DNA of 64,000 nt from the NCBI RefSeq assembly GCF_000828635.1, contig NZ_AP012547.1, positions 992,001-1,056,000 on the forward strand, read 5' to 3'. The DNA comes from Sulfuritalea hydrogenivorans sk43H (GTDB lineage Bacteria; Pseudomonadota; Gammaproteobacteria; Burkholderiales; Rhodocyclaceae). The notes below the pieces were generated by a model that was not told the origin of the DNA, ran no database searches, and saw nothing but the letters and a program-made list of their open reading frames with translations. Position numbers and translations under genes: made by a program. Below are positions 3,513 through 34,800 of the stretch, piece by piece. Every line of letters starts with the position of its first letter. The first letter of the stretch is position 1.

Positions 3513-5048
3513 TTAGCCGCGGAGCAGCGTCAGAACCTGGTTCGGCAGCGCATTCGCCTGAGCCAGCATGGCGATGCCTGCCTGCTGCAGAATCTGGGCG
3601 CGGGTCAGGTTGGCCGTTTCCATCGCGAAGTCGGCATCCTGAATCCGGCTGCGGGACGCGGCGAGGTTCTCCGACGTCGTCTGCAGCGAGGTTACCGTGG
3701 TTTCGAACCGGTTCTGCAGTGCGCCGTAACGGGCACGCTGGCTACCTACGTTGGCCAGGGCGCCGTCGATGATGGCGATACTGCGGTTGGCCGCATCCTT
3801 GCTGGATACGTCGGCGTACTGGACGGTCTGCTGCTGGGCGGAAGCCGTGGCCGCGCTGAAGAACTCATCGACGGTCGCACCGCTGACGTTGAAGGACTTG
3901 TCCGAGTCGAGCGAAAGCTCACCGACCACGACGTTGGTTGCAGCGGCATTCGCTGCCGTGACCACGGCGGCGGTGATACCACCGTTGTTGGCCCCGGTGA
4001 AGGCGGTCAGCGTATAGGCTGCGCTGGTGTTCACCAGGGTGCTGACGGTCATGTTGTTGCCCGAAGCGTTGGTCAGCACCAGGGACGTACCCAGGTCATC
4101 GACCCGTGCCGTGACGCCGGTGGTGGCCGACTTGTCGTTGAAGGCATTCACTGCGGCGCTGAGGCCGTCGGCATTGATCGTGGCGCCGGTAGTGAAGGCG
4201 ATCGTCACGGCCGAGGCGTTGTCGGACGTCATCTGGAAGGAATAGGAAGACGCTGCCGTCAGCGTGCCCATCTTGATTTCAGTGACGGCATTTGCGGTTA
4301 CGCCGGTCTGGCCCGTCTTGGCGTTGACCAGTGCGGCGACGTCTCTGGCGGAAGCCGATGCACCGTAGGTGACGTCAGCACTGCCCAGCGCGCCGTTGAT
4401 GGTGAAGGTATCGCCGGCAAGGCGGGTTGCCGCCGCTACCGTGGAAGTGATGGTGTTTGCCGTGCTGCCGGCGACCAGCGCGCCGCGGGTGGGTTCCGGA
4501 TTGCTCGCAAGCACAGCCTGCGCGCCCATGCGGTAGCTGCCATAGTTGTTGGTGCGGAAGTTGGCGCTGGTGGCGGTGATGGTCTGGTTGGCGTTGGCGC
4601 CGACCTGGAACTGGGCGTAGGTGAAGGTTCCGTCCAGCAGGTTGCGGCCGTTGAACTGGGTGGTCTGGGCAATCCGATCGAGTTCGGACGACAGGTTTGC
4701 GACTTCGCCCTGGAGGGCGGCGCGGTCGGAGGCCGAATTGGTTTCGTTGGCGGACTGTACTGCCAGTTCGCGCATGCGCTGCAGGATGTCTTGGGAGCCG
4801 GAGAGCGCGCCTTCAGCCGTTTGGGCCAGCGAAATTCCGTCATTGGCGTTGCGGCGGGCCTGATCAAGACCGCGAATCTGCGATGTGAAGCGGCTGGCAA
4901 TCGCGAGGCCGGCGGCGTCGTCCTTGGCGCTGTTGATGCGCAGACCCGAAGACAAGCGCTGCAGCGAGGTCGACAGGCTGGTTTGCGACGTGTTGAGATT
5001 GCGCTGGGCATTCAGCGATTGGATGTTGGTGTTGATTACCTGTGCCAT
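3513..5048 (-). CDS. fliC: Flagellin (first copy)
   Basis: 511 residues with the conserved flagellin ends. The N-terminal D0/D1 region runs from [19 protein letters not shown] through [18 protein letters not shown] and [16 protein letters not shown] to about residue 170. The C-terminal D1/D0 region is the last 90 residues or so, with [20 protein letters not shown] and a TLLRG end. The central part (about 175-410) is rich in Thr, Ser, Ala and Asn, variable, and unlike the second flagellin. It has a strong sigma-28 promoter about 100 bp upstream and RBS AAAGGAG. Ser/Thr-rich surface domains of this type are common targets of O-glycosylation, which is relevant to the locus at 24-35 kb. Confidence 0.97.
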
Positions 5049-5144
5049 TTTGCTTCTCCTTTCAGAGGGTTAGACTGATCGGAAGCGCCTGAATCGCTGT
5101 CTCCGACAGATTTCTTGGGCGGCGTTGTACCGCCGACAAGTTCA

Positions 5145-5171
5145 TTATCGGAGTGCGAAATGAAAACTTTA
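5145..5171 (-). promoter_or_regulatory. Sigma-28 (FliA) promoter of fliC
   Basis: Read on the minus strand: TAAAGTTT (5171-5164), an 11-base spacer, then TCCGATAA (5152-5145). This matches the FliA consensus TAAAGTTT-N11-GCCGATAA at 15 of 16 positions with exact spacing. It lies about 97 bp before the fliC start. Confidence 0.9.
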
Positions 5172-5189
5172 GGGCATTGGCGAAATACC

Positions 5190-5220
5190 CAAAAAGAAGC
5201 GGCTCCTTATGGGAGCCGCG
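5190..5220 (-). terminator. Rho-independent terminator after second flagellin gene
   Basis: GCGGCTCC (5199-5206) and GGGAGCCGC (5211-5219) form a GC-rich stem with a TTAT loop. On the minus strand a CTTCTTTTT tract follows. It separates the two flagellin genes, so each is transcribed alone. Confidence 0.87.
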
Positions 5221-5250
5221 ATGGTTTGCTGCTGGATACGCCGTTTGTTG

Positions 5251-6900
5251 TCAGCGTTGCAGCAGCGAAAGTACCTGATTAGGCAGGGCATTTGCCTGAG
5301 CCAGCATGGCGGTACCGGCTTGCTGCAGGATCTGGTTGCGGGTCAGCACCGCGGTTTCCGCGGCAAAGTCGGCGTCGCGGATGCGCGAGCGCGAGGCGCT
5401 GAGATTCTCCGAGGTGGTTTGCAGATTGACGATGGTCGACTCGAACCGGGATTGCAGGGCGCCATAGCGCGCGCGCTGGCTGTTGATGGCGGCCAGTGCC
5501 GAATCCGCCATGGCGATGGTGCGACCCGCCGCATAGGTGGTGCTGATGTCGGCCTTGGCGACTTCCTGCAGGGCGGACGCCGATACGGTTGCGGCCGTCA
5601 TGAATCCCGCGGCGCCGCCCACGCTATCCGTGACCGAGAAGGACTTTTCCGAATCGAGATTGAGCTGACCGGTGACCCAGTAGCCATCGGCTGCGGCCCA
5701 TGTGGTCGTGGTGCCTGCCACCGCCAGTGTGGCAGCGGTGGCCGCCGTCGCCGCATCGCCGTCGATGGCCTTGATGTCCTGCATCACGACGGATGTGCCG
5801 GAAATATTGTTGATGCGCAAGTCCTTGCCGCTTTCATTGACGATGTGCAGGCCGAAGCGCCCGCCATCGGTCTTGACCACCCTTGCCGTGAAGCCGGTTT
5901 TGCCGGCCGCGTCGTTGAAGGCCTGGGCCGCTGCATTCAATTGGTCTGCCGAACTGATTTCACCACTGCCGGTGGTTCCGCCGGTGGTGAAGGAGACGGT
6001 CGTGAAACCGGCGCCGGGAGTCGCCGCCACGGTCGGGCTGGTCGTGTCGGTCGCGAGGTAGAAGGAGTAAGTGGTGTTCTGCTGGAATGCGTTGGCGGCG
6101 GCGGCGCCGTCGTTGGCGCCCAGGATGAACTGGGTGGTGGCGCTGGCGGTGATACCCAGGGCGGCCTGATTGATCGAGGCGGCCACGTCGAAAGCCGAGG
6201 CGCCCGCGGCATAGTCGAGTACGGTGGTTCCCGTGGCCGTGTTGATGGTCAGGGTTCCTGCCGCCTGGATCGGCGATTCATTGATGTTGCCGGTGTCGGT
6301 ACGTGTCAGTTGCGCATAGGCAGTCTGGCCCTTGGTCAGGTCGCCGATGCCGGTCTGCGTCGTGGCGGCGAGGGCGCCGATGCGGTAATTGCCGTAGGCA
6401 TTGGTCTGGAAATTTCCCGAGGTCGCCGAAATTGTCTGGTTGGCATTGGCGCCGACCTGGAAGATGGCTGCGGTGAATGAACCATCGAGCAGGCGCTGGC
6501 CGTTGAACTCGGTGGTCGAAGCGACCCGCTGCATTTCCTGGATCAGTTGCTGGACTTCGGCGTTCAGGGCTGCGCGGTCGCCCGCCGAATTGGTCGCGTT
6601 CATCGACTGGATCGACAACTCGCGGATGCGTTGCAGGATGTCGGATGACGTCTGCAGGGCGCCTTCCGCGACCTGTGCGAGGGAAATGCCGTCGTTGGCG
6701 TTGCGCCGCGCCTGATCGAGGCCGCGCACCTGTGTGGTCATTCGCTCGGAGATCGCCAGGCCCGCCGCGTCATCCTTGGCGGAGTTGATCCGCAGGCCGG
6801 AGGATAGTCGCTGCAACGAAGTCGCCAGATCCAGTTGCGACCGGTTCAGATTCCGCTGGGCATTCAAGGATGCAACGTTGGTATTGATGACTTGTGGCAT
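5251..6900 (-). CDS. fliC: Flagellin (second copy)
   Basis: 549 residues from the ATG at 6900 ([20 protein letters not shown]), preceded by RBS AGGAG. A longer in-frame extension to 6957 has no flagellin similarity and is not used. D0/D1 at the N-terminus and D1/D0 at the C-terminus (about 465-549, ending LSLLQR) match the first flagellin closely, while the central domain (about 180-460) is longer and different. It has its own terminator. No good sigma-28 promoter was found upstream, unlike the first copy, so it may be a minor or differently controlled filament component. That last point is inference. Confidence 0.96.
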
Positions 6901-7170
6901 GGCGATTCTCCTGGCTGGACGATTTCCGATGCGCTTGGCGGTCTCGCGTCGAGACAACCGGGCCCGGACCTCTACTCGTTGTGGTCTTGCGTTCTACTGA
7001 GCAACCTGCGTGCCATCTTTGGCGGAAAGAATGAAATTCGTTAAAGACAGGTGTTTTTCGGTGGTTGATCCGGCTACTGCGTCCATCCGGGCAATTGCAA
7101 GGGCAATTCTTGCCGCCATCCGGCCAAGTTTTCCCGAGTTGTTGCCGCCTTCGGTCGCGAACATTTCTCG

Positions 7171-24314: not shown

Positions 24315-27023
24315 ATGGCCAAGCCGCGAACAGCCTCCAGCCGCACACCAAGGAAGAGTACGAGCAATATCGCCGATCTCAGCAGCGTCGCCCACGCGCT
24401 GGAAGAGTCGGGTGACACGGCGGGTGCAATCAAGCTGTACCGCGACTGGCTAGCAAGAACCGACTCGCCGGATGCGTGGATCGCGCATTTCAACGTGGGC
24501 GTATTGCTCAACGGCGCGAACGATCTGGCGGGAGCGGAGGAGTCATACACCGCTGCCATTGCGCTTAACCCAGGCTATGCGGCGTCGCACGTCAATCTCG
24601 GTCATGCATTGGATCGCCAGGGCAGGGACCTTGATGCCATTGCCGCATGGTCGGAGGCCCTGAAGCTGCTCGATGCCACGCCGAACCCGGATCAGGAGGC
24701 GCTGCGCGTTACGCTCAACAGCCTGGGACGGCGCCTGGAGGCGCTGGAGCGGATTCCCGAGGCGCTGACCATGCTCACCCGCAGTCTGGCGGTACAACCC
24801 GATCAGGAAATCGTTCTGTATCACCTGATCTACCTGCGGCAGCAGCAATGCGAATGGCCGGTGCTGGCGCCCTTGCCGGGTATTTCGGCGGACAACATGC
24901 TCGCCGCCGTTTCGCCGGTGGCGATGCTGGCCATATCCGATGACCCGGCGCTGCAATTGCATGCCGCGGTCAGGCACCGCGAACCGTTGCCGCTGCCCGT
25001 CATGCCGCGCTTCGCGCCTGTTGCCGGCTACTCCCACGGGCGGTTGCGGATCGGCTACCTCTCGTCGAATTTCGGGCGGCATCCGGTGTCCTATCTGACG
25101 GCAGAACTCTATGAATTGCATGATCGGCACCGTGTCGAAGTGTTCGGCTTTTGCGGCAGCCCCGAGGACAATTCGGAGATTCGCCGCCGCGTGTCCGCCG
25201 CAATGGATCACTTCATCCGGATTGACCAAATGTCGGACGAAGACGCCGCGCGTGCAATCTGCGACGCCGAAATCGACATCCTGGTAGATCTGCAGGGACA
25301 CACCGCCGGTGCGCGTCCCAACATCCTCGCCTATCATCCGGCGCCGGTGCAAATAGCCTATCTCGGATTTCCCGGCACCAGCGGCATGCCCGAGATCGAC
25401 TACGTGCTGGCCGACCGATATGTGCTGACAGAGGAATCGGTTCGCCATTTCAGCGAGAAGCCGCTTTACCTTCCCGACTGCTTCCAGGTCAATGACAGGA
25501 AACGAGTCGCCGCGGCGCCACTGGGTCGAGCCGAATACGGATTGCCGGAGGACGCCTTTGTCTTCTGCACCTTCAACAAGAACACCAAGTTCAATCCGGA
25601 GTTTTTCTCCGCCTGGATGCGCATCCTGGCACGTACTCCGAACAGCGTGCTCTGGCTGCTTGCCGCGGATGAGGGGGCACGGGAAAACCTTGTTCGATAT
25701 GCCCTGGCTCAGGGGGTAGGCCGCGAGCGCCTGATTTTCGCCCCTCGCGTACCGATGGCCCGCTACCTCGCACGATTTGCCGTCGCCGACCTGTTTCTCG
25801 ACATTTCACCGTTCAACGGCGGCACCACCGTGGCGGATGCCTTGTGGATGGGACTTCCCGTGCTCACCTGTTCCGGCAGGAGCTTCGCCTCGCGGATGGG
25901 GGGCAGCCTGCTCAATGCCATCGGACTGCCGGAACTGATCACCACCTCACTCGGCGACTACGAGGAACTGGCGGTTGGGCTGGCCGGCGATGCGGCGCGA
26001 CTCGCTCTGATCCGGAGCCGCCTGGCGGCGAACCGGGACACCCATCCGCTGTTCGATACACCGAAGTTCGTGCGCAACCTCGAAGACATATTCCTCCGCA
26101 TTGCGAAAACGGAGTCCGGCCATGAACCTGCCAGTCCGATGAACACCTTCGATGTGCGGCCGTTTGCGGAACGGGAGATAGTCTTTGTCGTGTATGCGCC
26201 GGCCTTTCATCGCACCAGCGGTGGAGTTTATGCACTTCATGCCATGGCTGAAGACATGTACGCCATGGGCTGCAACGTCGGCATGCTGGCGGGAGCGGGC
26301 ATGCCGGGGGCGAGGGTTCCGCTCGTCAGTCTGGAGTACCTGGAGACCATGCGGGCGGCGGGGATGACGATCGTGGCGATTTACCCTGAAATCGTTACTG
26401 GAAACGTGCTCAAGGCCGATTACGCGGTATGGTGGCTGCTCAACTATCCGGGACATATCAAGGGCAACTGGGACGGCAGTTTCGACTGGGCGGATCGCGT
26501 TATTGGTTTCGGGCCGGAGCTGGGGCGCAGTGGGCGATGCGACTCGACGCTCACCTATCCCCTGTACGACCCGGATTTCTTTTTTCCGAACGACGCGATC
26601 CCGAAAACGGAAGTCACCTACTATGTGAATAGGATATTCAGCGTTGCCGAAACAATTCAGGCCCCGGTGAATCCCACCTGCGTCCTGAACCCGGCTGACA
26701 ATCTCAGCTACAGGCAACTACGCGATGTCCTGTGGCGGTCGAAGGTCGTGATTTCCAATGAATGGTCGGGAACCCTCGTCATGGCCAGACTCTGCGGTGC
26801 TCCCGTGATTTACCTTCCGTCCCCCCTGTTGTCCCCCGAGGTCCAGAACACGGTGGAGCATCGGCTTGGCGCTGCCTGGGGCTATTCCGAACGGAATGTC
26901 GAACTGGCCCGTCAATCGCTCGGGGCCTTGAAAGCGATTCATCAAGAAAGGAAGGCGACATGGTTGCCAAGCCTGGCCAGGGAGGTTCGAACATGGATTC
27001 AGGGCGCGAAGTGCAAGCCGTAG
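24315..27023 (+). CDS. TPR protein O-GlcNAc transferase-like glycosyltransferase (GT41) with extra C-terminal glycosyltransferase-like domain
   Basis: About 902 residues from the ATG at 24315; an in-frame ATG at 24237 would add 26. TPR-like helices fill about 20-190. The GT41 (SPINDLY/OGT) catalytic region spans about 240-610, with RIGYLSSNFGRHPVSYLTAE, APVQIAYLGFPGTSGMP, DRYVLTEESVRHF and FNGGTTVADALWMGLPVLT then GRSFASRMGGSLLNAIGL. A further 280 residues from about 620 (EIVFVVYAPAFHRTSGGVYA and so on) resemble a GT4/GT1-type fold, making this an unusual two-enzyme fusion. Bacterial TPR-GT41 proteins often glycosylate flagellins or adhesins on Ser/Thr. It heads the ten-gene sugar locus. Confidence 0.87.
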   Translation: MAKPRTASSRTPRKSTSNIADLSSVAHALEESGDTAGAIKLYRDWLARTDSPDAWIAHFNVGVLLNGANDLAGAEESYTAAIALNPGYAASHVNLGHALDRQGRDLDAIAAWSEALKLLDATPNPDQEALRVTLNSLGRRLEALERIPEALTMLTRSLAVQPDQEIVLYHLIYLRQQQCEWPVLAPLPGISADNMLAAVSPVAMLAISDDPALQLHAAVRHREPLPLPVMPRFAPVAGYSHGRLRIGYLSSNFGRHPVSYLTAELYELHDRHRVEVFGFCGSPEDNSEIRRRVSAAMDHFIRIDQMSDEDAARAICDAEIDILVDLQGHTAGARPNILAYHPAPVQIAYLGFPGTSGMPEIDYVLADRYVLTEESVRHFSEKPLYLPDCFQVNDRKRVAAAPLGRAEYGLPEDAFVFCTFNKNTKFNPEFFSAWMRILARTPNSVLWLLAADEGARENLVRYALAQGVGRERLIFAPRVPMARYLARFAVADLFLDISPFNGGTTVADALWMGLPVLTCSGRSFASRMGGSLLNAIGLPELITTSLGDYEELAVGLAGDAARLALIRSRLAANRDTHPLFDTPKFVRNLEDIFLRIAKTESGHEPASPMNTFDVRPFAEREIVFVVYAPAFHRTSGGVYALHAMAEDMYAMGCNVGMLAGAGMPGARVPLVSLEYLETMRAAGMTIVAIYPEIVTGNVLKADYAVWWLLNYPGHIKGNWDGSFDWADRVIGFGPELGRSGRCDSTLTYPLYDPDFFFPNDAIPKTEVTYYVNRIFSVAETIQAPVNPTCVLNPADNLSYRQLRDVLWRSKVVISNEWSGTLVMARLCGAPVIYLPSPLLSPEVQNTVEHRLGAAWGYSERNVELARQSLGALKAIHQERKATWLPSLAREVRTWIQGAKCKP

Positions 27024-27075
27024 TTTGGACAAGGGCTTTCCGGTATTCCGGCGTCCGCGACGTGAAAGGTCAAGC

Positions 27076-27858
27076 ATGAAGGTGGTCCAACTGGGCAGAA
27101 ACGATCTGTACGTTGTCCTGTCCATGACTTATAAGGCCATGGCGATCGCGCCGAAAGTCATCGAGCTTGGTGTGTTGCGCGGAGACAATGCGCTGGTGTT
27201 GCATCGAACTTTGTCACCAAGCCTCATGGTGCTGATCGATGCCTGGAGCGCGGAAGCGGCCACGCAAGGATACTGTCCGTTTGACGAGCTCCCCGCCTGG
27301 GTGAATCCGGTTGATACCTATGACTACTATTTCGGCGGATCCGTTCGGGAGCAGCGAACCTACGATGTGATCCACGATGAATGCGTGTCGAAGCTCGAGG
27401 GACTTGCCAATGTCGTTTTTCTGAGATACGCAACCATAGAGGCTTTGGCGCATATCAAGCCGAGAACCGGCGAGGATCACTTCGATCTTGTGTATGTCGA
27501 TGCCAACCATCAATATGAGTATGTCCTGCGGGATTTGATGCGCTATCAGGAAATCGTCGCAGAAAACGGCTGCATCATGCTTAACGATTGCTGCCACAGC
27601 AGCGCCGGAACCTTGCAGAACCTGGGCGTTCTCGAAGCCGTATCGAGCTTTCTGAAGCGCTCCGATTTTCGCCCGGTCGCATTGACAAATACCGATTGGT
27701 CGGATTTGATTCTCGTTCGAAAGGGATCCGCCATAGGACAACTGCTGGATTACACCATTGCGAATTCGGACATTGCCTATGTCGAAATCCCGGATCAACT
27801 TCTGCCCGCCGGAAGAATTATCGATGGCAAGCAACGAAAGAACATTTCCTTCGCGTAA
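27076..27858 (+). CDS. Class I SAM-dependent methyltransferase (Methyltransf_24-like)
   Basis: 260 residues from the ATG at 27076 (RBS AAAGGT); a TTG-started extension to 27025 looks non-coding. The fold pattern is visible: KVIELGVLRGDNALVLHR (motif I, E-L-G-x-x-x-G), LMVLIDAWS (motif II) and FDLVYVDANHQYEYVLRDLM, the signature of sugar and rhamnosyl O-methyltransferases. It probably methylates a sugar hydroxyl of the glycan built by this locus. Base composition is visibly lower in GC than the housekeeping genes around 9-15 kb. Confidence 0.8.
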   Translation: MKVVQLGRNDLYVVLSMTYKAMAIAPKVIELGVLRGDNALVLHRTLSPSLMVLIDAWSAEAATQGYCPFDELPAWVNPVDTYDYYFGGSVREQRTYDVIHDECVSKLEGLANVVFLRYATIEALAHIKPRTGEDHFDLVYVDANHQYEYVLRDLMRYQEIVAENGCIMLNDCCHSSAGTLQNLGVLEAVSSFLKRSDFRPVALTNTDWSDLILVRKGSAIGQLLDYTIANSDIAYVEIPDQLLPAGRIIDGKQRKNISFA

Positions 27859-27908
27859 CCGATGAAACAGGACTGATCAATGGGGGCGGCCTTCGGCGGA
27901 ATCTGCAC

Positions 27909-28835
27909 ATGAAATGGACAAAACTCGGCCAGGTATTTTGCGCCTCCGGCCAGAACGAGTCGATGGTGGCGGGCGGCCGAACTCCCGTACCGCTGCATCT
28001 CTTCGGGGATGTCTATCGCATCTATTTCGCCGCCTACGACGGGCTGGGACGCGGTCGCATTTTTTCACTCGAACTGGACCTGAAAACCCCCGGCCAGATT
28101 GGTAACCTGATAACCGCCCCGATCATCGACATTGGAGCAACCGGATTCTTCGACGACAACGGCATCATTCCATCCGACGTAGTGCGGGTCGACGGGAACA
28201 TCTATCTTTACACCATCGGTTTCAGCCTCAAGAATCGCCTGATGTTCGACGCCGCCACGGGGCTTGCCATTTCCCGCGATGATGGCCTTAGCTTCTCCAG
28301 ACTGAACGGACCTGTGCTCGACCGGGGCGTCGATGATCCCTGTTTTGCCGCCTCTCCCGCGGTAATGCTGGAGAATGGCAGTTGGCGCATGTGGTACGTA
28401 TCCTGCGATCACTGGACGCCGCGGCCGGAGGGCTTCCGCCATTATTACAATATCAAGCATCGTCGTTCCGTGGATGGCATCTACTGGGAACCCAGGGCCA
28501 CCGTCTGCATCGACTACGCCAACGAACACGAATATGCCATTTCGCGCCCCTCCGTCATCAGGGGGGCAGACGGAACGTATCGCATGTGGTATTCATTCAG
28601 GGCGCAACCTGGAATAGAGACCTATCGGATAGGCTATGCCGAGTCGGCCGACGGCCTTGACTGGGTTCGCATGGACGACCAAGCGGGCATCGATGTCTCG
28701 GACAGCGGATGGGATTCGGACATGATCTGCTACCCCAGGGTTTTTTCCCATGAAGGGCGCCTTTATATGCTCTACAACGGCAACGGTTACGGAAAAACCG
28801 GTTTCGGTCTGGCGGTGATGGAGGCGGAGGAATGA
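27909..28835 (+). CDS. Five-bladed beta-propeller glycosidase-like protein
   Basis: 308 residues, cytoplasmic (no signal peptide), rich in Trp, Tyr and Asp. Repeated blade motifs are YRIYFAAYDGLGRGRI, IYLYTIGFSLKNRLMF, WRMWYVSCDHW, YRMWYSFRAQPG and LYMLYNGNGYGKTGFG, each ending in a Y-x-x-Y/W-Y type strand as in GH43, GH32 and GH130 proteins. The absence of a signal peptide and its place in a biosynthetic locus suggest that it acts on a sugar nucleotide or glycan intermediate, or has lost hydrolase activity. Its stop overlaps the next start by four bases. Confidence 0.7.
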   Translation: MKWTKLGQVFCASGQNESMVAGGRTPVPLHLFGDVYRIYFAAYDGLGRGRIFSLELDLKTPGQIGNLITAPIIDIGATGFFDDNGIIPSDVVRVDGNIYLYTIGFSLKNRLMFDAATGLAISRDDGLSFSRLNGPVLDRGVDDPCFAASPAVMLENGSWRMWYVSCDHWTPRPEGFRHYYNIKHRRSVDGIYWEPRATVCIDYANEHEYAISRPSVIRGADGTYRMWYSFRAQPGIETYRIGYAESADGLDWVRMDDQAGIDVSDSGWDSDMICYPRVFSHEGRLYMLYNGNGYGKTGFGLAVMEAEE

Positions 28836-29503
28836 CGAAGGTAATTCTGGCGGGCAACGCAATAACGGCCGACATCCTTTACTCCTATCTGCGGGCCGAC
28901 AGCCGCTATGAAGTAGTGGGGCTTACGGTGGATGACGAATTCATCGACCAGGGAAGCGTGGATGGCTTTGCTGCCGTAGGCTTGTCCCAGGTAAAAGAAC
29001 GTTTCGCGCCACAGACCTGCCGTGTCGTTATGGCGGTCGGCTACAACGATCTCAACCGGGTCCGCGAGTCGCTTTTCCTGCGGCTCAAGGCAATGGGATA
29101 TGCGGTGGAGACCTACGTTCATCCCGCTGCGCAAGTGTGTTCGAGTCATGCACTGGGGGAAGGTTGCGTGGTATTGCCATCTGCCGTCATCGAACCCCAT
29201 GCACGCGTTGGCGCCAACAGCATGGTATGGAGCAACGTGACCCTGGCCCATCACAGCAGCATCGCGGAGCACTGCTGGATTGCGGCGGGAACCGTCATTT
29301 CGGGCCAGGCCAGCGTATTGCGCAACAGTTTCATCGGCGTGAATGCCACGGTGGTGAACGAAGTGACGGTGGGCGAGTACAACATCGTCGGTGCCGGCGC
29401 CCTGATCACCAAGGACACCAAGCCCCACACCGTGCATCTAGCACGCTCCGCCGAGCCGTTTCGCTACTCGTCGGATGACTATGTGAAGTATTTTGGAATC
29501 TGA
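28832..29503 (+). CDS. PglD-like sugar O/N-acyltransferase (left-handed beta helix)
   Basis: 223 residues. An N-terminal Rossmann-like part (KVILAGNAITADILYSYLRA, YEVVGLTVDDEF) is followed by hexapeptide repeats from about residue 95 (VHPAAQVCSSHALGEGCVVL, AVIEPHARVGANSMVW, AEHCWIAAGTVISGQ). The catalytic His of the family is likely in LAHHSSIAE. PglD acetylates the 4-amino group of UDP-4-amino sugars; NeuD and VioB-type proteins are related. It fits with the DegT aminotransferase at 33661. Overlaps the gene before it (ATGA). Confidence 0.85.
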   Translation: MTKVILAGNAITADILYSYLRADSRYEVVGLTVDDEFIDQGSVDGFAAVGLSQVKERFAPQTCRVVMAVGYNDLNRVRESLFLRLKAMGYAVETYVHPAAQVCSSHALGEGCVVLPSAVIEPHARVGANSMVWSNVTLAHHSSIAEHCWIAAGTVISGQASVLRNSFIGVNATVVNEVTVGEYNIVGAGALITKDTKPHTVHLARSAEPFRYSSDDYVKYFGI

Positions 29504-29504
29504 C

Positions 29505-29744
29505 ATGAACAAACGATTGACAGCTCTGTTGGCCGACGTGTTTCGTTTGCGCGAATCCGAGATTCATCCGGACCTGAAAAAGGCCGACGTGGGAAGTTGG
29601 GACTCACTGAAACAGATGGACCTGGTGATGTCCCTGGAAGGCGAATACGGGATCGTGCTGATGATCCCCGACATCGTTCGCATGGTGTCCGTCGCCGGTA
29701 TCGTCGCCGTGCTGAAGGAGAAGGGAGTCGATCTTGCGGATTGA
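29505..29744 (+). CDS. Acyl/peptidyl carrier protein
   Basis: 79 residues from the ATG at 29505. The phosphopantetheine site is Ser in WDSLKQMDLVM (D-S-L motif), followed by the typical LEGEYGI helix. A single carrier protein beside a stand-alone adenylation enzyme (31346) implies that an activated amino acid or related acid is loaded on this Ser and then passed on. No phosphopantetheinyl transferase is in the window. The stop lies 10 bp inside the next gene. Confidence 0.9.
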   Translation: MNKRLTALLADVFRLRESEIHPDLKKADVGSWDSLKQMDLVMSLEGEYGIVLMIPDIVRMVSVAGIVAVLKEKGVDLAD

Positions 29745-30474
29745 CGGCGCCGTCGCCCTGGTGACGGGAGGCGCCCGGGGACTGGGCTTGGCAATCGCCA
29801 GCCATTTGCAATCCCTCGGCGCCACCGTGATCGCCGCCGACCTGGATCAGGATGCGCTGAGCCAATTGCCCGCATCCCTGACAGGGCGCATTCTGGACGT
29901 CACCTCTCCCGCCGATGCCAGGGCGGTCATCGCCGAAATCATCGAGCGCCACGGCCGCATCGACATCCTGGTGAACAACGCCGGCGTGATTTACAACGAA
30001 CCCTTCGTCAACATCATGAATCCCGACGGCATCATGCACGACTACGGCCGCTTCCGCGCTTCGCTGAACGTCAATCTGGATTCGGTGTTCATCATGACGT
30101 CAGCGGTCGTCGAGCAGATGGTCACGCGACGCGGCAAGGGCGTGATTGTCAATATCAGTTCCATCTGTGCCTGCGGCAACGAGGGCCAGACGGCGTATTC
30201 CGCGGCCAAGGCGGCGGTCAATGCGATGACCGTCACCTGGTCCAGGGAACTGGGGCGCTGGGGCATACGCTGCAATGCCGTGGCGCCCGGCTTCATCGAC
30301 ACCGACTCTACCCGTCGGGCCCTGAGCGAGCCGATACTGAAGCATATTCAGGCCAGTACCCCTCTGCGCCGCCTCGGCGAAGCCGGTGAGGTGGCGCAGG
30401 CGGTGGCGGCCGTCATTGAAAACGATTTCATCAACGGCGCGGTCTTGGCCGTCAATGGCGGACTCGCGATCTGA
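29734..30474 (+). CDS. Short-chain dehydrogenase/reductase (FabG-like)
   Basis: 246 residues, starting at a TTG at 29734; GAAGGAGAAGGGAG lies just upstream and no ATG is available before residue 90. The NAD(P) motif is VTGGARGLGLAIA (residues about 9-21); NNAG, the catalytic Ser in ISSICACG and Y-S-A-A-K are all present. The usual reading is reduction of a carrier-bound beta-keto group or oxidation of a sugar hydroxyl. Between carrier and formyltransferase genes, either would fit. Ends overlapping the next ATG. Confidence 0.88.
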   Translation: MRIDGAVALVTGGARGLGLAIASHLQSLGATVIAADLDQDALSQLPASLTGRILDVTSPADARAVIAEIIERHGRIDILVNNAGVIYNEPFVNIMNPDGIMHDYGRFRASLNVNLDSVFIMTSAVVEQMVTRRGKGVIVNISSICACGNEGQTAYSAAKAAVNAMTVTWSRELGRWGIRCNAVAPGFIDTDSTRRALSEPILKHIQASTPLRRLGEAGEVAQAVAAVIENDFINGAVLAVNGGLAI

Positions 30475-31349
30475 TGGGCAGTCGTTTTGTTTTCGTCGGC
30501 AACAGGCGATTTGTCCTGGAGCAGATGATCCTTGAGGGCCTGGACCTGACTGCCGTGTTCGTGGTCGGCGGCACGCATCTGGAGCGCGACCTGAACAACG
30601 GCCTGCTGCCGAAAGTGACCAACTGGATCGTCGTCGGCAGCAAGGCGGAACTCCTGAGTCAGCTTGAGAAAAATCGATTCGATGTATTGGTCTCCAATGG
30701 CTGCCCTTACATCCTGCCCATATCCGACCTGCCTGCGGCCCGTTACGTCAATATACATCCATCATTTCTTCCAGACCTGCGCGGGGCCGATCCCACCATA
30801 GGCGCGATACTGCTCGAACGGGACACCGGCGCCACGTGCCATGTCATGGATGCGGGGATCGACACCGGCCCCATAATTTCGCAAGTCCGCATCCCCTACA
30901 GCGACGACCTGGACGCAACGACGCTTTACCAACTGAGCTTCATCGCCGAGAAACGGGTCTTCTCCCGGTCCCTGGCCCGGGATTTTCAACCGGCGGCGGA
31001 TCAGGAGGAGGTTCCGGGCCTGATTTACTACAGCCGGAAGGGGGGCGACCGGGTGATCACCTTCACCGAACCGAACGATCTGATCCTGCGAAAAATCCGG
31101 GCGTTCAACAACAGGTCGCAAGGCTGCGAATTCGTCGCGAGTGGCGGCCGGTTCCGGGTGTTCTCGGCGCGACTCATGCACAACCCGTTTCTTGCCGAAA
31201 TCGTGACGGATTTCCCGGCGCTGACCGTGGCCTTGATCTATGAGAATTCCATAGCCTTCCACAAGGACGGCCAGGTCATGCGCTTTGATAGCGTTCAGCC
31301 TGACGGAAATGGCGCAATGGCCATCGGCGACCGGCTGCTTTCGGCATGA
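30474..31349 (+). CDS. Formyltransferase-like enzyme (sugar N-formyltransferase family)
   Basis: 291 residues. The formyl-THF-dependent catalytic core is present: Asn in SNGCPYILP, HPSFLPDLRGADPT and the Asp in MDAGIDTGPI, matching the N-H-D triad. Related enzymes (ArnA N-domain, VioF, WlaRD) formylate the 4-amino group of nucleotide-linked amino sugars. With a DegT aminotransferase in the same operon, the simplest reading is N-formylation of a 4-amino-4,6-dideoxyhexose. The C-terminal 90 residues differ from Fmt. Start and stop overlap both neighbours, indicating tight coupling. Confidence 0.82.
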   Translation: MGSRFVFVGNRRFVLEQMILEGLDLTAVFVVGGTHLERDLNNGLLPKVTNWIVVGSKAELLSQLEKNRFDVLVSNGCPYILPISDLPAARYVNIHPSFLPDLRGADPTIGAILLERDTGATCHVMDAGIDTGPIISQVRIPYSDDLDATTLYQLSFIAEKRVFSRSLARDFQPAADQEEVPGLIYYSRKGGDRVITFTEPNDLILRKIRAFNNRSQGCEFVASGGRFRVFSARLMHNPFLAEIVTDFPALTVALIYENSIAFHKDGQVMRFDSVQPDGNGAMAIGDRLLSA

Positions 31350-32899
31350 AGGCCTATGCCTACAATTTGTCCCAGCGCTTTGCCGAGGTCTGCGGCGGCG
31401 ACGGCAGTCGCCCGGCGCTGCGGTATCCCGAGCGCACCGTCAGCTTCGGCGAACTGGCCGGCATGGTTGAACGTCTGGCCCGGCACATCCTGAATCACGG
31501 ATGCCAGCGCGGCGACGTCATCGCCATCGGCCACACCAAGCGCCCCTTGTCCTTCGCCCTGATGCTCGCCGCCCTCAGGCTGGGGGTGGCCTATGTCAAT
31601 ATCGACGTGGCGTCGCCGACGGCGCGCACGGCCAGGATTCTGCGCACCAGCGGCGCCACGCTGCTGTTTTTCGACGATCCGGCCCATTGGGACGCCATGG
31701 CGGAACTGGCCGCTTCCCACGCCTGCCCGCTGCTCCATCTCGACGAGTCGCAATTGCCGGAGATTTCCGCCGCCGAGCGGGAAGAGCACTCCCGATTGTC
31801 GTCCCGGGTGGACGGCGCCTGCATCGCCTACATCATGTTCACTTCGGGTTCCACCGGCGTCCCGAAAGGCGTGGCGGTCACCCATCAGAACGTATTGCAC
31901 TTCATCGCCTGGGGCCAGCGGCAGTTCGAGGTCTCGGAGAAGGACAACTTCGCCAACCTGAGTCCGATGTACTTCGACAATTCGGTTTTCGATTTCTATG
32001 TCGGACTGTTTTCGGGGGCATCCCTCAGCCCGGTTTCCCGTGAGTTGCTGTCCGACCCCTACGCGTTGGCGGCCCACGTCGGGAACATGGCGTGCACCGT
32101 GTGGTTTTCCGTGCCGTCCCTGCTCATGTACCTGATGACCATGAAAGCCTTGACCGCGGCGGGACTGCCTTCGCTGCGGGCCATCGTTTTTGGTGGCGAG
32201 GGCTATCCCAAGGTGGAGCTGAAAAAACTTCACGACCTGTTTTCAAGGCAGGCGCAACTGGTCAACGTCTACGGCCCCACCGAATGCACGTGCATTTGCA
32301 GCGCACATCGCCTGGGCGATGCAGACTTCGACGATCTGGAGGGGCTGCCCACCCTGGGCCATCTGAATCCCAACTTCGATTACCGCATCGTTGACGAAGA
32401 AGACCGGGACACGGCGAGCGGCGAGCTGTGCCTGATCGGACCGAATGTGGCAGCGGGCTATTTCAACGATCCGGAACGAACCGCCGCCGCCTTCCATACC
32501 CTCACCGACGCCCGCCGCTACATGAAGCGAATGTATCGCACCGGCGACCTGGTGCGTGAAGAGGGCGGCCGCCTGTATTTCATGGGCCGCAAGGACAATC
32601 AGATAAAGCACATGGGCTATCGCATCGAACTGGAGGAAATTGAACAGGCCCTGATGCGGCAGCCCGCGATACATCAGGCCGCCGTAATGTATCAACGTGG
32701 CCATGCGGCCTACGGCAAGTTGATCGGCTTCGTCGCCAGCACCGAACAATTGGACGACCGGGAGGTATTGACGGAATTGGCCGGGCTGCTGCCGGATTAC
32801 ATGGTGCCGGCCCGGCTGTTCGTCCTCTCCGAATTGCCGAAGAATCCGAATGGCAAGGTGGATCGCCAGCGGTTGAAAGACCTGCTGGCGCAGCAGTGA
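31346..32899 (+). CDS. Stand-alone amino-acid adenylation enzyme (DltA-like A domain)
   Basis: 517 residues. Adenylation motifs in order: A3 IMFTSGSTGVPKGVAVTHQN; A4 SPMYFDNSVFDFYVGLFSGA with the Asp that holds an alpha-amino group; A5 NVYGPTECTC; A7 YRTGDLVREEG; A8 GRKDNQIKHMGYRIELEEIE; A10 NPNGKVDRQ with the catalytic Lys. Layout and length match DltA, which activates D-alanine, so the substrate is probably a small amino acid. No condensation or thioesterase domain is attached. It would load the carrier encoded at 29505. Start overlaps the formyltransferase stop (ATGA). Confidence 0.88.
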   Translation: MKAYAYNLSQRFAEVCGGDGSRPALRYPERTVSFGELAGMVERLARHILNHGCQRGDVIAIGHTKRPLSFALMLAALRLGVAYVNIDVASPTARTARILRTSGATLLFFDDPAHWDAMAELAASHACPLLHLDESQLPEISAAEREEHSRLSSRVDGACIAYIMFTSGSTGVPKGVAVTHQNVLHFIAWGQRQFEVSEKDNFANLSPMYFDNSVFDFYVGLFSGASLSPVSRELLSDPYALAAHVGNMACTVWFSVPSLLMYLMTMKALTAAGLPSLRAIVFGGEGYPKVELKKLHDLFSRQAQLVNVYGPTECTCICSAHRLGDADFDDLEGLPTLGHLNPNFDYRIVDEEDRDTASGELCLIGPNVAAGYFNDPERTAAAFHTLTDARRYMKRMYRTGDLVREEGGRLYFMGRKDNQIKHMGYRIELEEIEQALMRQPAIHQAAVMYQRGHAAYGKLIGFVASTEQLDDREVLTELAGLLPDYMVPARLFVLSELPKNPNGKVDRQRLKDLLAQQ

Positions 32900-32918
32900 C
32901 TATGCCGGGCAGCTTGCC

Positions 32919-33650
32919 GTGAGGGTCGGCATCATCCAGTCCTGCTACGTGCCCTGGCGGGGCTTTTTCGACTTCATCGCCAGCGTGGACAAGTTCGTGT
33001 TCCTCGACGACGTGCAGTACACGCGTCGCGACTGGCGCACCCGGAATCAGCTGAAGACACCGAACGGCCTGGTATGGATTTCCGTCCCGGTCAGATATGG
33101 CGCCCGTGGCACGCAGGCCATCGACCAGACCGAGGTGATCTACTCGGCCACGGATGACTGGCGGGAGCGGCACTTGAACATGTTTCGCCAGCATTATTCC
33201 AGGGCGCCCTCCTACGCGGCCGCCAGAAGCATCCTGGAAAACGCCTTCGCGTTCCAGGACCGCAGCATCAGCGAGCTGAACATTCGCCTCGTGCGCTCGG
33301 TCTGCGCAAGCCTCGGCATCCGCACCGAACTCCTGTCGTCCCGCGACTTGCGCGCCGAGGGCGCAAAAACCGATCGCCTGATCGACATCCTGCGCAAGGT
33401 CGGCGCCTCCCGCTATCTGTCGGGCGCCAGCGCCGACGCCTATCTCGACAAGCATGCCTTCGCCGCCAGCGGCATCGCGCTGGAATACAAGACCTACGAC
33501 TATCCGCCGTATCCGCAGTTGTGGGGCGAGTTCATCGGCGGTGTCAGCGTGCTCGACCTGATTGCCAACTGCGGGCCGGCCAGCGCGGATTTTCTTCGCA
33601 GCCGCAGCCCCGACCGGGTCATCGTTCCGGCGCCGCATCCGCCAACCTGA
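32919..33650 (+). CDS. WbqC-family protein
   Basis: 243 residues from a GTG. The WbqC signature opens the protein: VGIIQSCYVPWRGFFDFIAS, then DKFVFLDDVQYTRRDWRTRN and WISVPV. WbqC proteins occur in O-antigen and flagellar glycosylation loci beside DegT, carrier and adenylation genes; several have been suggested to attach acyl or aminoacyl groups to amino sugars, though no firm mechanism is known to me. In this operon it is a good candidate for the enzyme that moves the activated residue from the carrier to the sugar amine. Confidence 0.88.
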   Translation: MRVGIIQSCYVPWRGFFDFIASVDKFVFLDDVQYTRRDWRTRNQLKTPNGLVWISVPVRYGARGTQAIDQTEVIYSATDDWRERHLNMFRQHYSRAPSYAAARSILENAFAFQDRSISELNIRLVRSVCASLGIRTELLSSRDLRAEGAKTDRLIDILRKVGASRYLSGASADAYLDKHAFAASGIALEYKTYDYPPYPQLWGEFIGGVSVLDLIANCGPASADFLRSRSPDRVIVPAPHPPT

Positions 33651-33660
33651 GGTGAAGTCC

Positions 33661-34800
33661 ATGGAAACAATCGGATTCAACAAGCCCTACATGAGCGGCA
33701 AGGAGCTGTACTACATCGCGCGAGCCCATTTCAACGCGCGCCTGGCGGGCGACGGACCGTTCACCGCGGCCTGCCACGAGTCGCTGGAGGGGTTTGTCGG
33801 CTGCAAGCGTGCCCTGCTGACCCATTCCTGCACCGCGGCACTGGAAATGTCGGCGCTGTTGCTTGACATCCAGCCCGGCGATGAAGTCATCATGCCGTCG
33901 TACACCTTCGTATCCACCGCCAACGCGTTTGCCCTGCGCGGCGGCGTTCCGGTATTTGTCGATATCCGCGAGGACGTCCTGAATCTCGACGAATCGCTGA
34001 TCGAGGCGGCGATCACGCCGCGCACCCGGGCGATCGTGCCGGTGCATTACGCCGGTGTCGGCTGCGAGATGGACACCATTCTCGACATCGCCGCCAGGCA
34101 CGGATTGAAAGTGGTCGAGGATGCCGCGCAAGCCTTCATGTCGCGCTATAAGGGGCGTCCGCTGGGTGGCATCGGCGATCTTGGCGCGCTGAGTTTTCAT
34201 GAGACGAAGAATGTGATCTCGGGCGAAGGCGGTGCGCTGCTGGTGAATGACGCATCCCTGATCGCGCGTGCTGAAATCATCCGCGAAAAGGGCACCGACC
34301 GCACGCGCTTTTTCCGCGGCGAAGCGGACAAGTACACCTGGCAGGAGGTGGGTTCGTCGTTCCTGCCGGGGGAACTGACAGCCGCCTTCCTGCTGGCGCA
34401 GCTCGAAGATGCCCGTGAAATCACCCGGCGCCGCATCGAGGCCTGGAATCATTACCATGAACTGCTGCAGCCCCTGGAAGCCGGGGGCCTGCTGCGGCGC
34501 CCGGTGGTTCCGCCGGAATGCGAGCACAACGGCCACATGTACTACGTCCTGCTGCCGGCCGAGGTCGATCGCCAGCACGTGCTCGCTGAATTGCTCGGGG
34601 AAGGGATCCACGCCGTTTTCCACTATGTACCCCTGCACGATTCTCCGGCGGGAAGGCGCCATGGTCGTGTGCATGGCACGTTGAAGCAAACCGAAGACCT
34701 TGCCGCGCGCCTGATACGGCTTCCGCTCTGGGTCGAAATTTCCCGGCCGCAGCAAGCGCGCATATGTGCAACCCTGAGGCGGGTACTCGAAAAGTCCTGA
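33661..34800 (+). CDS. DegT/DnrJ/EryC1 sugar aminotransferase (WecE/RffA-like)
   Basis: 379 residues. PLP-dependent; the Schiff-base Lys is in SFHETKNVISGEGG, with VVEDAAQAF ahead of it. The N-terminus ETIGFNKPYMSGKELYYIA is close to WecE/RffA, which makes dTDP-4-amino-4,6-dideoxygalactose from the 4-keto sugar. This gives the amine that the formyltransferase, PglD-like or WbqC enzymes could then modify. No dTDP-sugar synthase or dehydratase genes (rmlA, rmlB) lie in the window, so the substrate must come from elsewhere. Last gene of the locus; a GCCCGC/GCGGGC hairpin without a T tract follows at 34803-34816. Confidence 0.92.
   Translation: METIGFNKPYMSGKELYYIARAHFNARLAGDGPFTAACHESLEGFVGCKRALLTHSCTAALEMSALLLDIQPGDEVIMPSYTFVSTANAFALRGGVPVFVDIREDVLNLDESLIEAAITPRTRAIVPVHYAGVGCEMDTILDIAARHGLKVVEDAAQAFMSRYKGRPLGGIGDLGALSFHETKNVISGEGGALLVNDASLIARAEIIREKGTDRTRFFRGEADKYTWQEVGSSFLPGELTAAFLLAQLEDAREITRRRIEAWNHYHELLQPLEAGGLLRRPVVPPECEHNGHMYYVLLPAEVDRQHVLAELLGEGIHAVFHYVPLHDSPAGRRHGRVHGTLKQTEDLAARLIRLPLWVEISRPQQARICATLRRVLEKS

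Follow-up and report, generated by a model that had tools for sequence, protein, structure and literature searches.

In Pseudomonas syringae pv. tabaci 6605, the viosamine island is described as carrying vioA, vioM, vioT, vioS, vioB, vioR, and acp, with a counterpart in P. aeruginosa PAK, and as producing an N-acylated 4-amino-6-deoxy sugar for the flagellin glycan (PMC3927599). It is the closest known system to a ten-gene locus of Sulfuritalea hydrogenivorans sk43H that lies at positions 24315 to 34800 of the window analyzed here (64,000 nucleotides, positions 992,001 to 1,056,000 of contig NZ_AP012547.1; coordinates below are those of the window unless given as genome positions). We read this locus, with about an even chance of being right, as an acquired operon that makes a nucleotide-activated 4-amino-4,6-dideoxygalactose (Fuc4N) bearing an amino-acid-derived, N-formylated acyl group on its amine and that puts this sugar on protein.

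Likened by family and not by the Vio sequences themselves, the locus shares with the viosamine island a DegT aminotransferase, a VioB-type acyltransferase, an acyl carrier protein (ACP), a short-chain dehydrogenase/reductase (SDR) of the 3-oxoacyl-ACP reductase type, and a methyltransferase (PMC3927599). The two differ in how the acyl group would be obtained: a ketoacyl synthase III (VioS) is the proposed acyl-ACP source of the viosamine island (PMC3927599), whereas a family scan found no ketoacyl synthase among the ten proteins of this locus, which has a stand-alone adenylation enzyme (ADEN) in its place. Other differences are the added formyltransferase (FMT), WbqC protein, and beta-propeller-like protein (PROP), a transferase in which GT41 and GT-B domains are fused, and an aminotransferase of the WecE (Fuc4N) rather than the VioA (4-amino-4,6-dideoxyglucose [Qui4N]) kind. 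Genes for GT41, NeuD, ACP, the CoA-ligase-type CaiC, FabG, and DegT proteins and for methyl- and formyltransferases each occur in enterobacterial flagellin islands as well; in the part of that account used here, to whose descriptions the locus was compared, these genes are not stated to share one island, no WbqC is named, and the ligases are called fatty-acid CoA ligases (PMC4875605). A third likeness, also by description, is to the tetronate and perosamine genes of Vibrio cholerae O1, where a group made by a dedicated gene set acylates the amine of a 4-amino-4,6-dideoxy hexose; unlike in the product proposed here, that acyl group is a hydroxy acid and the product is lipopolysaccharide (LPS) (PMC3441752). 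The first-pass annotation of this DNA stated that no characterized system has this exact set, which is literally so as far as we found, although the viosamine and enterobacterial islands are close in kind. A literature search found no account of the cassette, and the parts that would be new to a specialist are its broad conservation and the BshC-like fold predicted for WbqC.

The ten genes and coordinates of that annotation were borne out: all are present head to tail on the + strand, all frames are free of internal stops, and neighboring gene ends overlap or sit at most 52 bases apart, with overlaps of 4 bases for PROP/PglD, 11 for ACP/SDR, 1 for SDR/FMT, and 4 for FMT/ADEN. (The search queries for the GT41, methyltransferase, PROP, carrier, and WecE proteins had 2 to 6 extra in-frame residues before the likely start codon.) Family assignments likewise support its view that an amino-sugar pathway, carrier-bound acyl activation, and a protein-type glycosyltransferase are joined in one locus. 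The locus is the lowest-GC 10.5 kb of the window (0.60 versus 0.64 elsewhere in the window). An ADEN match at an E value of 1e-90 was found in none of 149 other genomes sampled from the same family, including 3 of the same genus, in a survey that scored up to 10 candidates per genome, and the island looks horizontally acquired because of this absence. Matches to ADEN also occur in 7 plasmid records at 1e-60 and 28 phage records at 1e-30, all below 60% identity and at most 36% among the matches listed.

The sugar itself would be made by the product of the last gene (33661 to 34800, + strand), a WecE-type dTDP-Fuc4N aminotransferase that scores above the cut-offs of NF008687 (582.9 bits versus an equivalog cut-off of 375) and TIGR02379 and matches the PDB entries 4piw and 6blg at about 440 bits. 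Its substrate, dTDP-4-keto-6-deoxyglucose, would be supplied by RmlA and RmlB encoded elsewhere in the genome, where an rmlB gene was found above cut-off at genome position 1559833 (485.8 bits versus 365.1). The amide on the 4-amino group would be formed by a NeuD/PglD/VioB-type hexapeptide acyltransferase (28832 to 29503, + strand), by WbqC, or by both, the part of WbqC and the order of the steps being conjectural. The PglD-like protein scores just under the TIGR03570 cut-off (155.4 versus 160.8 bits) and has Hexapep matches, and its PDB relatives include UDP-N-acetylbacillosamine and perosamine N-acetyltransferases.

The acyl group is predicted to begin as an amino acid that ADEN (31346 to 32899, + strand) adenylates and loads onto the acyl or aminoacyl carrier protein (29505 to 29744, + strand), which scores above the PF00550 cut-off and has a DSL serine in its sequence; one AcpS-family match is present genome-wide. 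ADEN exceeds the amino-acid adenylation cut-off of TIGR01733 (331.9 versus 317.4 bits), and its best PDB match is LgrA, a linear gramicidin synthetase that includes a formylation domain as well. The evidence from protein families is strong for the predicted ADEN and carrier step, as it is for the WecE step. ADEN belongs to the same superfamily as DltA- and LgrA-type adenylation enzymes, and D-alanylation of the DltA type was rejected: the TIGR01734 score is 293.6 bits against a cut-off of 559.85, and the pocket, DNFSVGVCIK, differs from the DLMSLCTVAK of one DltA comparator that is itself above the DltA cut-off. To our knowledge, this pocket (D211, N212, F215, S258, V281, G283, V308, C316, I317, and K504) fits no specificity code. 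Across 77 aligned ADEN sequences, the ten positions are near-invariant as D N F S x G V C I K, with position 5 alone varying freely among V, I, S, T, and A (G and L once each). The Asp that binds an amino group, which the first-pass annotation had seen in ADEN, is kept in 77 of 77, a conservation that is partly selected, as one of the two scan patterns contained pocket positions 1 and 2; the other positions were not selected in this way. From the pocket we infer that the substrate of ADEN is one conserved small compound, probably with an amino group.

The carrier-bound unit could instead be a hydroxy or keto acid, such as 3-hydroxybutyryl or tetronyl, from which ADEN, ACP, the SDR, and PglD would make a plain N-acyl sugar. 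Analogues of VioA, VioB, VioR, and ACP are all present, as in the described viosamine island (PMC3927599), V. cholerae O1 is described as acylating perosamine with tetronate by a dedicated gene set (PMC3441752), and the SDR is FabG-like. We nevertheless think this improbable, given an ADEN above the amino-acid adenylation cut-off with its conserved Asp and given that a second amine would account for a formyl- or acetyltransferase beside PglD in a locus with just one sugar aminotransferase. Because the locus pairs a single sugar aminotransferase with both an N-capping enzyme and PglD, the extra capping enzyme is easiest to explain if the amine to be capped comes with the activated acid. Capped aminoacyl groups of this kind are described on bacterial glycans, namely, N-acetylglycyl and N-(3-hydroxybutyryl)alanyl on Qui4N and N-acetylalanyl on both 3-amino-3,6-dideoxyglucose (Qui3N) and Qui4N (PMC3210612).

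A scan of 84,980 species genomes with the ADEN alignment returned 469 relatives, and the best 80 were retained. By record title, 12 named phyla are represented among these 80 loci, two of which lack a phylum; many are metagenome assemblies. Homologues were counted anywhere in a locus, and many of the loci are shortened by contig ends. The locus profiles were built from the same loci in two iterations from the window proteins, so that scores lean towards them, at thresholds of 45 to 150 bits. In the 55 loci that span 19 kb or more, SDR, ACP, and PglD were found without exception, PROP in 52, WbqC in 47, and a WecE-family aminotransferase in 46; all six families occurred together in 41 of these 55 and in 49 of the 80 overall. 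In a quick tree of 77 ADEN sequences, the window ADEN falls in a clade of 29 rows with support of 100. This clade plus two loci too short for the tree is called clade A (30 loci, at least 57% identity), and the other 50 loci are called clade B. A chance neighborhood or artefact was rejected as the explanation, since most of the sampled ADEN relatives are surrounded by this set of genes and the sampled WbqC genes are not. The sugar cassette is thus widespread and common to several phyla, and it is combined with differing delivery systems. The combination of a clade A cassette with GT41 has been seen so far in the window alone.

Two further enzymes may tailor the acyl chain. The first is the SDR (29734 to 30474, + strand), a FabG/VioR-like reductase or dehydrogenase with PF13561 and FabG-type matches and an S-Y-K triad that is kept across 3 aligned sequences; it may modify the carrier- or sugar-bound chain, as proposed for VioR of P. 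syringae. The second is the N-formyltransferase FMT (30474 to 31349, + strand; PF00551 and PF02911), which would cap the free amino group. Many relatives have a GNAT acetyltransferase here instead: of the 30 clade A loci, 14 encode GNAT between SDR and ADEN and 5 encode FMT there, and SDR directly adjoins ADEN in 33 of the 50 clade B loci. FMT is roughly equidistant in sequence from PseJ, PurN, sugar formyltransferases, and LgrA, its closest PDB match being PseJ (47.7 bits), with dTDP-4-amino-sugar formyltransferases at 39 bits and the LgrA formylation domain at about 37 bits. Formylation of the Fuc4N 4-amino group itself, giving Fuc4NFo, while the ADEN, ACP, and PglD branch acylates another position or sugar, would agree with PseJ as the closest match, with the near equality of the dTDP-4-amino-sugar enzymes and LgrA, and with the occurrence of fmt genes in the islands of 9 of 307 strains described as having flagellin glycosylation islands (PMC4875605). 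We regard this as unlikely, however, in light of the slot that FMT shares with GNAT and of its relation to the cassette methyltransferase.

This Trm112-type methyltransferase tends to be absent where FMT is present, which suggests that FMT acts on the same acyl unit. Scoring 79 loci, the window included, gave 11 with FMT only, 35 with GNAT only, 2 with both, and 31 with neither; the methyltransferase was present in 1 of 11, 29 of 35, and 2 of 2 of the first three groups, and the contrast between FMT-only and GNAT-only loci has a Fisher p of 2e-5 with kinship ignored. The pattern has the same direction in both clades (1 of 7 with FMT versus 15 of 17 with GNAT in clade A; 0 of 4 versus 14 of 18 in clade B), and FMT and GNAT have changed places at least 8 times along the ADEN tree. 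In six independent pairs on starred branches, the methyltransferase was opposite in 4.3, went in the same direction in 0, and showed no difference in 1.7. The tie between the FMT/GNAT swap and the methyltransferase is suggestive, not proven. Two Lachnospiraceae (Gram-positive) loci (L088 and L090) depart from the usual one-or-other pattern, with FMT and GNAT labels together and two PROP genes each. In Francisella noatunensis (L055, 412 to 7168), a sugar cluster holds the cassette with FMT and without any labeled methyltransferase; the LPS of the related F. victoria reportedly contains alanine and 3-aminobutyric acid along with a novel branched amino acid.

WbqC (32919 to 33650, + strand; PF08889, 245.7 bits versus a cut-off of 21.3) is a 243-aa protein and the only WbqC match in the genome. 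Its predicted structure has the Rossmann-type core fold of BshC, which came out best by a wide margin when a second structure aligner re-ranked the Foldseek candidates; at 243 aa, it is too short for the coiled-coil dimerization domain of BshC, the fetched sequences of which are 522 to 549 aa long. BshC is described as presumably adding cysteine to glucosaminyl-malate (PMC4360819). On the basis of this resemblance between its predicted fold and a putative cysteine ligase, WbqC may join an amino acid to an amino sugar, which suggests a first function for an uncharacterized family. The earlier suggestion of WbqC as a possible transferase gains in this respect as to an aminoacyl-handling role, although WbqC is not tied to ADEN: 20 sampled WbqC neighborhoods that served as a control contained ADEN in 0, ACP in 0, and SDR in 2, and a phylum sample of 249 genomes had WbqC in 65. 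A PIG-L deacetylase was rejected as part of the cassette, being present in 3 of the 20 WbqC neighborhoods and 0 of the 80 ADEN loci. Three loci (L158, L159, and L161) have both a DegT aminotransferase and a homologue of PIG-L-type deacetylases in the vicinity of WbqC, which recalls the pair of BshB and BshC in bacillithiol synthesis if, as we assume, BshB belongs to that deacetylase family. Literature searches found 12 papers that mention WbqC, none of them on its function by title and abstract start, nothing joining WbqC, flagellin, and glycosylation, and no account of the amide-forming step for amino-acid-bearing amino sugars. For such sugars of bacterial surface glycans (PMC3210612), the pathway proposed here offers a biosynthetic route.

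Transfer of the finished sugar to protein is proposed from the first gene, which encodes a 902-aa TPR and GT41 (OGT/SPINDLY-like) glycosyltransferase (24315 to 27023, + strand). PF13844 is matched at 295.6 bits (cut-off 25) in two stretches that represent both halves of the domain, next to TPRs, and the protein matches OGT, SPINDLY, and XcOGT structures. Its HPVSYL and FNKNTK segments align by eye with OGT, and their His and Lys are presumably the OGT active-site residues. By these features it belongs to the OGT/SPINDLY family and is a predicted protein glycosyltransferase. From residue 610 or so, it continues into a C-terminal GT-B-like domain of about 290 aa (26139 to 27020, + strand) that the first-pass annotation had overlooked; a Pfam scan of this domain matched no family, and its assignment comes from relatives and Foldseek. 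The relatives, found in 4 of 397 other genomes, are two stand-alone 369-aa proteins, the N terminus of a 1151-aa protein with a Glycos_transf_2 stretch, and a 305-aa protein. Foldseek with a weak AlphaFold model (pLDDT 65, 4 sequences) gave 34 matches at an E value of at most 0.001, which among the matches listed are all named glycosyltransferases, with low TM-scores; these are a hint of class only.

One of these four relatives (L174) directly adjoins a DegT aminotransferase gene. A second (L173) does so too; two flagellins confirmed by Pfam are nearby, PglD-like and SDR genes follow downstream, a carrier-like frame is recognized by iterated profile and not by Pfam, and the profile labeling of that locus gave no ADEN or WbqC label. 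A third (L154) shares its cluster with WecE (about 8.5 kb away), WbqC, PglD, and PROP homologues, and the fourth (L172) lies 6.5 kb from a DegT protein of, by eye, the RfbH type. Because its relatives sit near aminotransferase genes in sugar clusters, the fused domain is probably an amino-sugar transferase. The GT41 domain would then put a first sugar on Ser or Thr, and the fused GT-B domain would add the decorated Fuc4N, most likely on flagellin. The proposed acceptors are two flagellin genes of the window (3513 to 6957, - strand) with PF00669 above cut-off at genome positions 996620 and 998472; a third flagellin match in the genome, lower scoring and to the flagellin N-terminal family, lies outside the window at genome positions 943182 to 943589.

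Delivery genes differ between the clades. GtrA labels fell on 17 of the 30 clade A loci and on 1 of the 50 in clade B; the corresponding figures are 0 of 30 and 9 of 50 for Wzm-type exporter labels and 0 of 30 and 3 of 50 for those of flagellin. For GT41, the count is that of direct blastp, in which the window GT41 region was matched in 11 of the 80 loci, all of clade B, four of them also Pfam-checked (L061, L066, L073, and L080). The iterated-profile GT41 labels (4 of 30 and 15 of 50) were not taken at face value: they were dropped for L023, L059, L078, and L082 (29 to 53 bits only), for L097 (a short frame without a Pfam match), for L042 and L044 (no Pfam match), and for L054 (weak, below-cut-off GT4-type matches). 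In the last three, from Roseomonas, Bosea, and Acetobacteraceae, the cassette lacks WbqC and is accompanied by a protein of 514 to 578 aa that is GT41-like by iterated profile alone. A WZT label was set aside as unspecific, since it was also given to an ABC gene that lies in the window but not in the locus.

These counts bear on whether the product is destined for a polysaccharide such as LPS or capsule, with flippase and polymerase genes elsewhere in the genome, and not for protein. The first-pass annotation argued for protein from the lack of Wzx and Wzy genes; none is among the ten genes, the remainder of the genome not having been searched for them, and the argument does not hold by itself, since the same cassette occurs elsewhere with GtrA or ABC-2 exporters. 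The GtrA and Wzm-type labels favor a polysaccharide, as does the lack of a confirmed GT41 from every other clade A locus. Against it, the sole glycosyltransferase of the operon combines TPR-GT41, a family of cytosolic protein glycosyltransferases, with a second transferase domain, and GT41-bearing relatives in Massilia adjoin flagellin; a polysaccharide is, in our judgment, a doubtful destination. Both Massilia loci have genes for GT41, an aminotransferase, and flagellin next to one another, the flagellin of L073 having both Pfam flagellin domains and that of L074 resting on its locus label. Together with the GT-B relative in a flagellin-adjacent cluster, they favor the flagellin hypothesis of the first-pass annotation.

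A different surface protein may instead be the acceptor. Upstream of the window (genome positions 957001 to 992500; L005 and L006), a second GT41 gene (964975 to 966030) lies near genes that are, by eye, ABC-, HlyD-, and TolC-like, and the same region has an open frame of 3519 aa made up of simple repeats, which may encode a giant surface protein that is glycosylated separately. Another surface protein, such as this giant one, seems to us a poor candidate to replace flagellin as the target: the upstream region has a GT41 of its own, and flagellin genes are found near relatives of the cassette and near those of the GT-B domain.

Several observations weigh against the Fuc4N pathway to flagellin as set out above. 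The locus lies about 17 kb from the window flagellins, with genes between them that by eye are unrelated, and no direct GT41 match fell in clade A, to which the window ADEN belongs, whose 30 loci have GtrA (membrane delivery) in 17. FMT is somewhat nearer to PseJ, which formylates a sugar, than to the LgrA domain that formylates an aminoacyl group (47.7 versus about 37 bits) and for this reason may formylate the sugar itself. The link between FMT and the methyltransferase is not significant when kinship is allowed for (6 independent pairs, median p of 0.125), the methyltransferase is also present in 20 of the 31 loci with neither FMT nor GNAT, and the question was framed after the gene strings were in view and was not a blind prediction. 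For WbqC, Foldseek of the predicted structure against the PDB gave no match at an E value of at most 0.001, and hhalign with BshC (6 BshC sequences) gave an E value of 0.29 over 18 columns, judged to be chance; by sequence, the best PDB match of WbqC has an E value of 0.3.

A broader proposal, which we offer tentatively and think rather unlikely to hold in full, concerns the cassette of the 12 phyla as a whole. ADEN would load an amino acid onto the carrier, the SDR would oxidize its side chain, and either GNAT with the Trm112-type methyltransferase or FMT alone would tailor it; WbqC would be a BshC-like, carrier-independent amino-acid:amino-sugar amide synthase; and Gtr flippases, ABC exporters, and GT41 would be interchangeable outlets. 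If this is true, the finished sugar would carry a peptide-like side chain, and the acyl group made with GNAT and the methyltransferase could even close to a methylated 5-oxoproline, that made with FMT staying an open N-formyl aminoacyl group. Methylated 5-oxoproline groups are found in O-antigens. A methyltransferase with GNAT and not with FMT, the pattern that ring closing would call for, is seen in the counts and is not significant by independent pairs, and a literature search for such acyl groups gave nothing useful. The presence of one sugar cassette beside both polysaccharide-type and protein-type delivery genes cautions against telling an O-antigen locus from a flagellin locus by its sugar genes alone.

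Two further genes complete the operon. A class I methyltransferase of the Methyltransf_24 family (27076 to 27858, + strand; PF13578, 35.5 bits versus a cut-off of 26.3) follows the GT41 gene, and next to it is PROP (27909 to 28835, + strand), a GH130/GH43-type beta-propeller-like protein. The gene called a propeller protein at first pass is present, its propeller identity coming from below-cut-off matches alone (PF04041, E value of 0.0028; NF052550, 35 bits versus a cut-off of 450). In a GT41 locus of Undibacterium (L096, 7870 to 8955), a 361-aa protein with Methyltransf_24 in its C-terminal half is encoded between PMT2 and ACP genes, and a frame in L076 has a start that is similar to it by eye.

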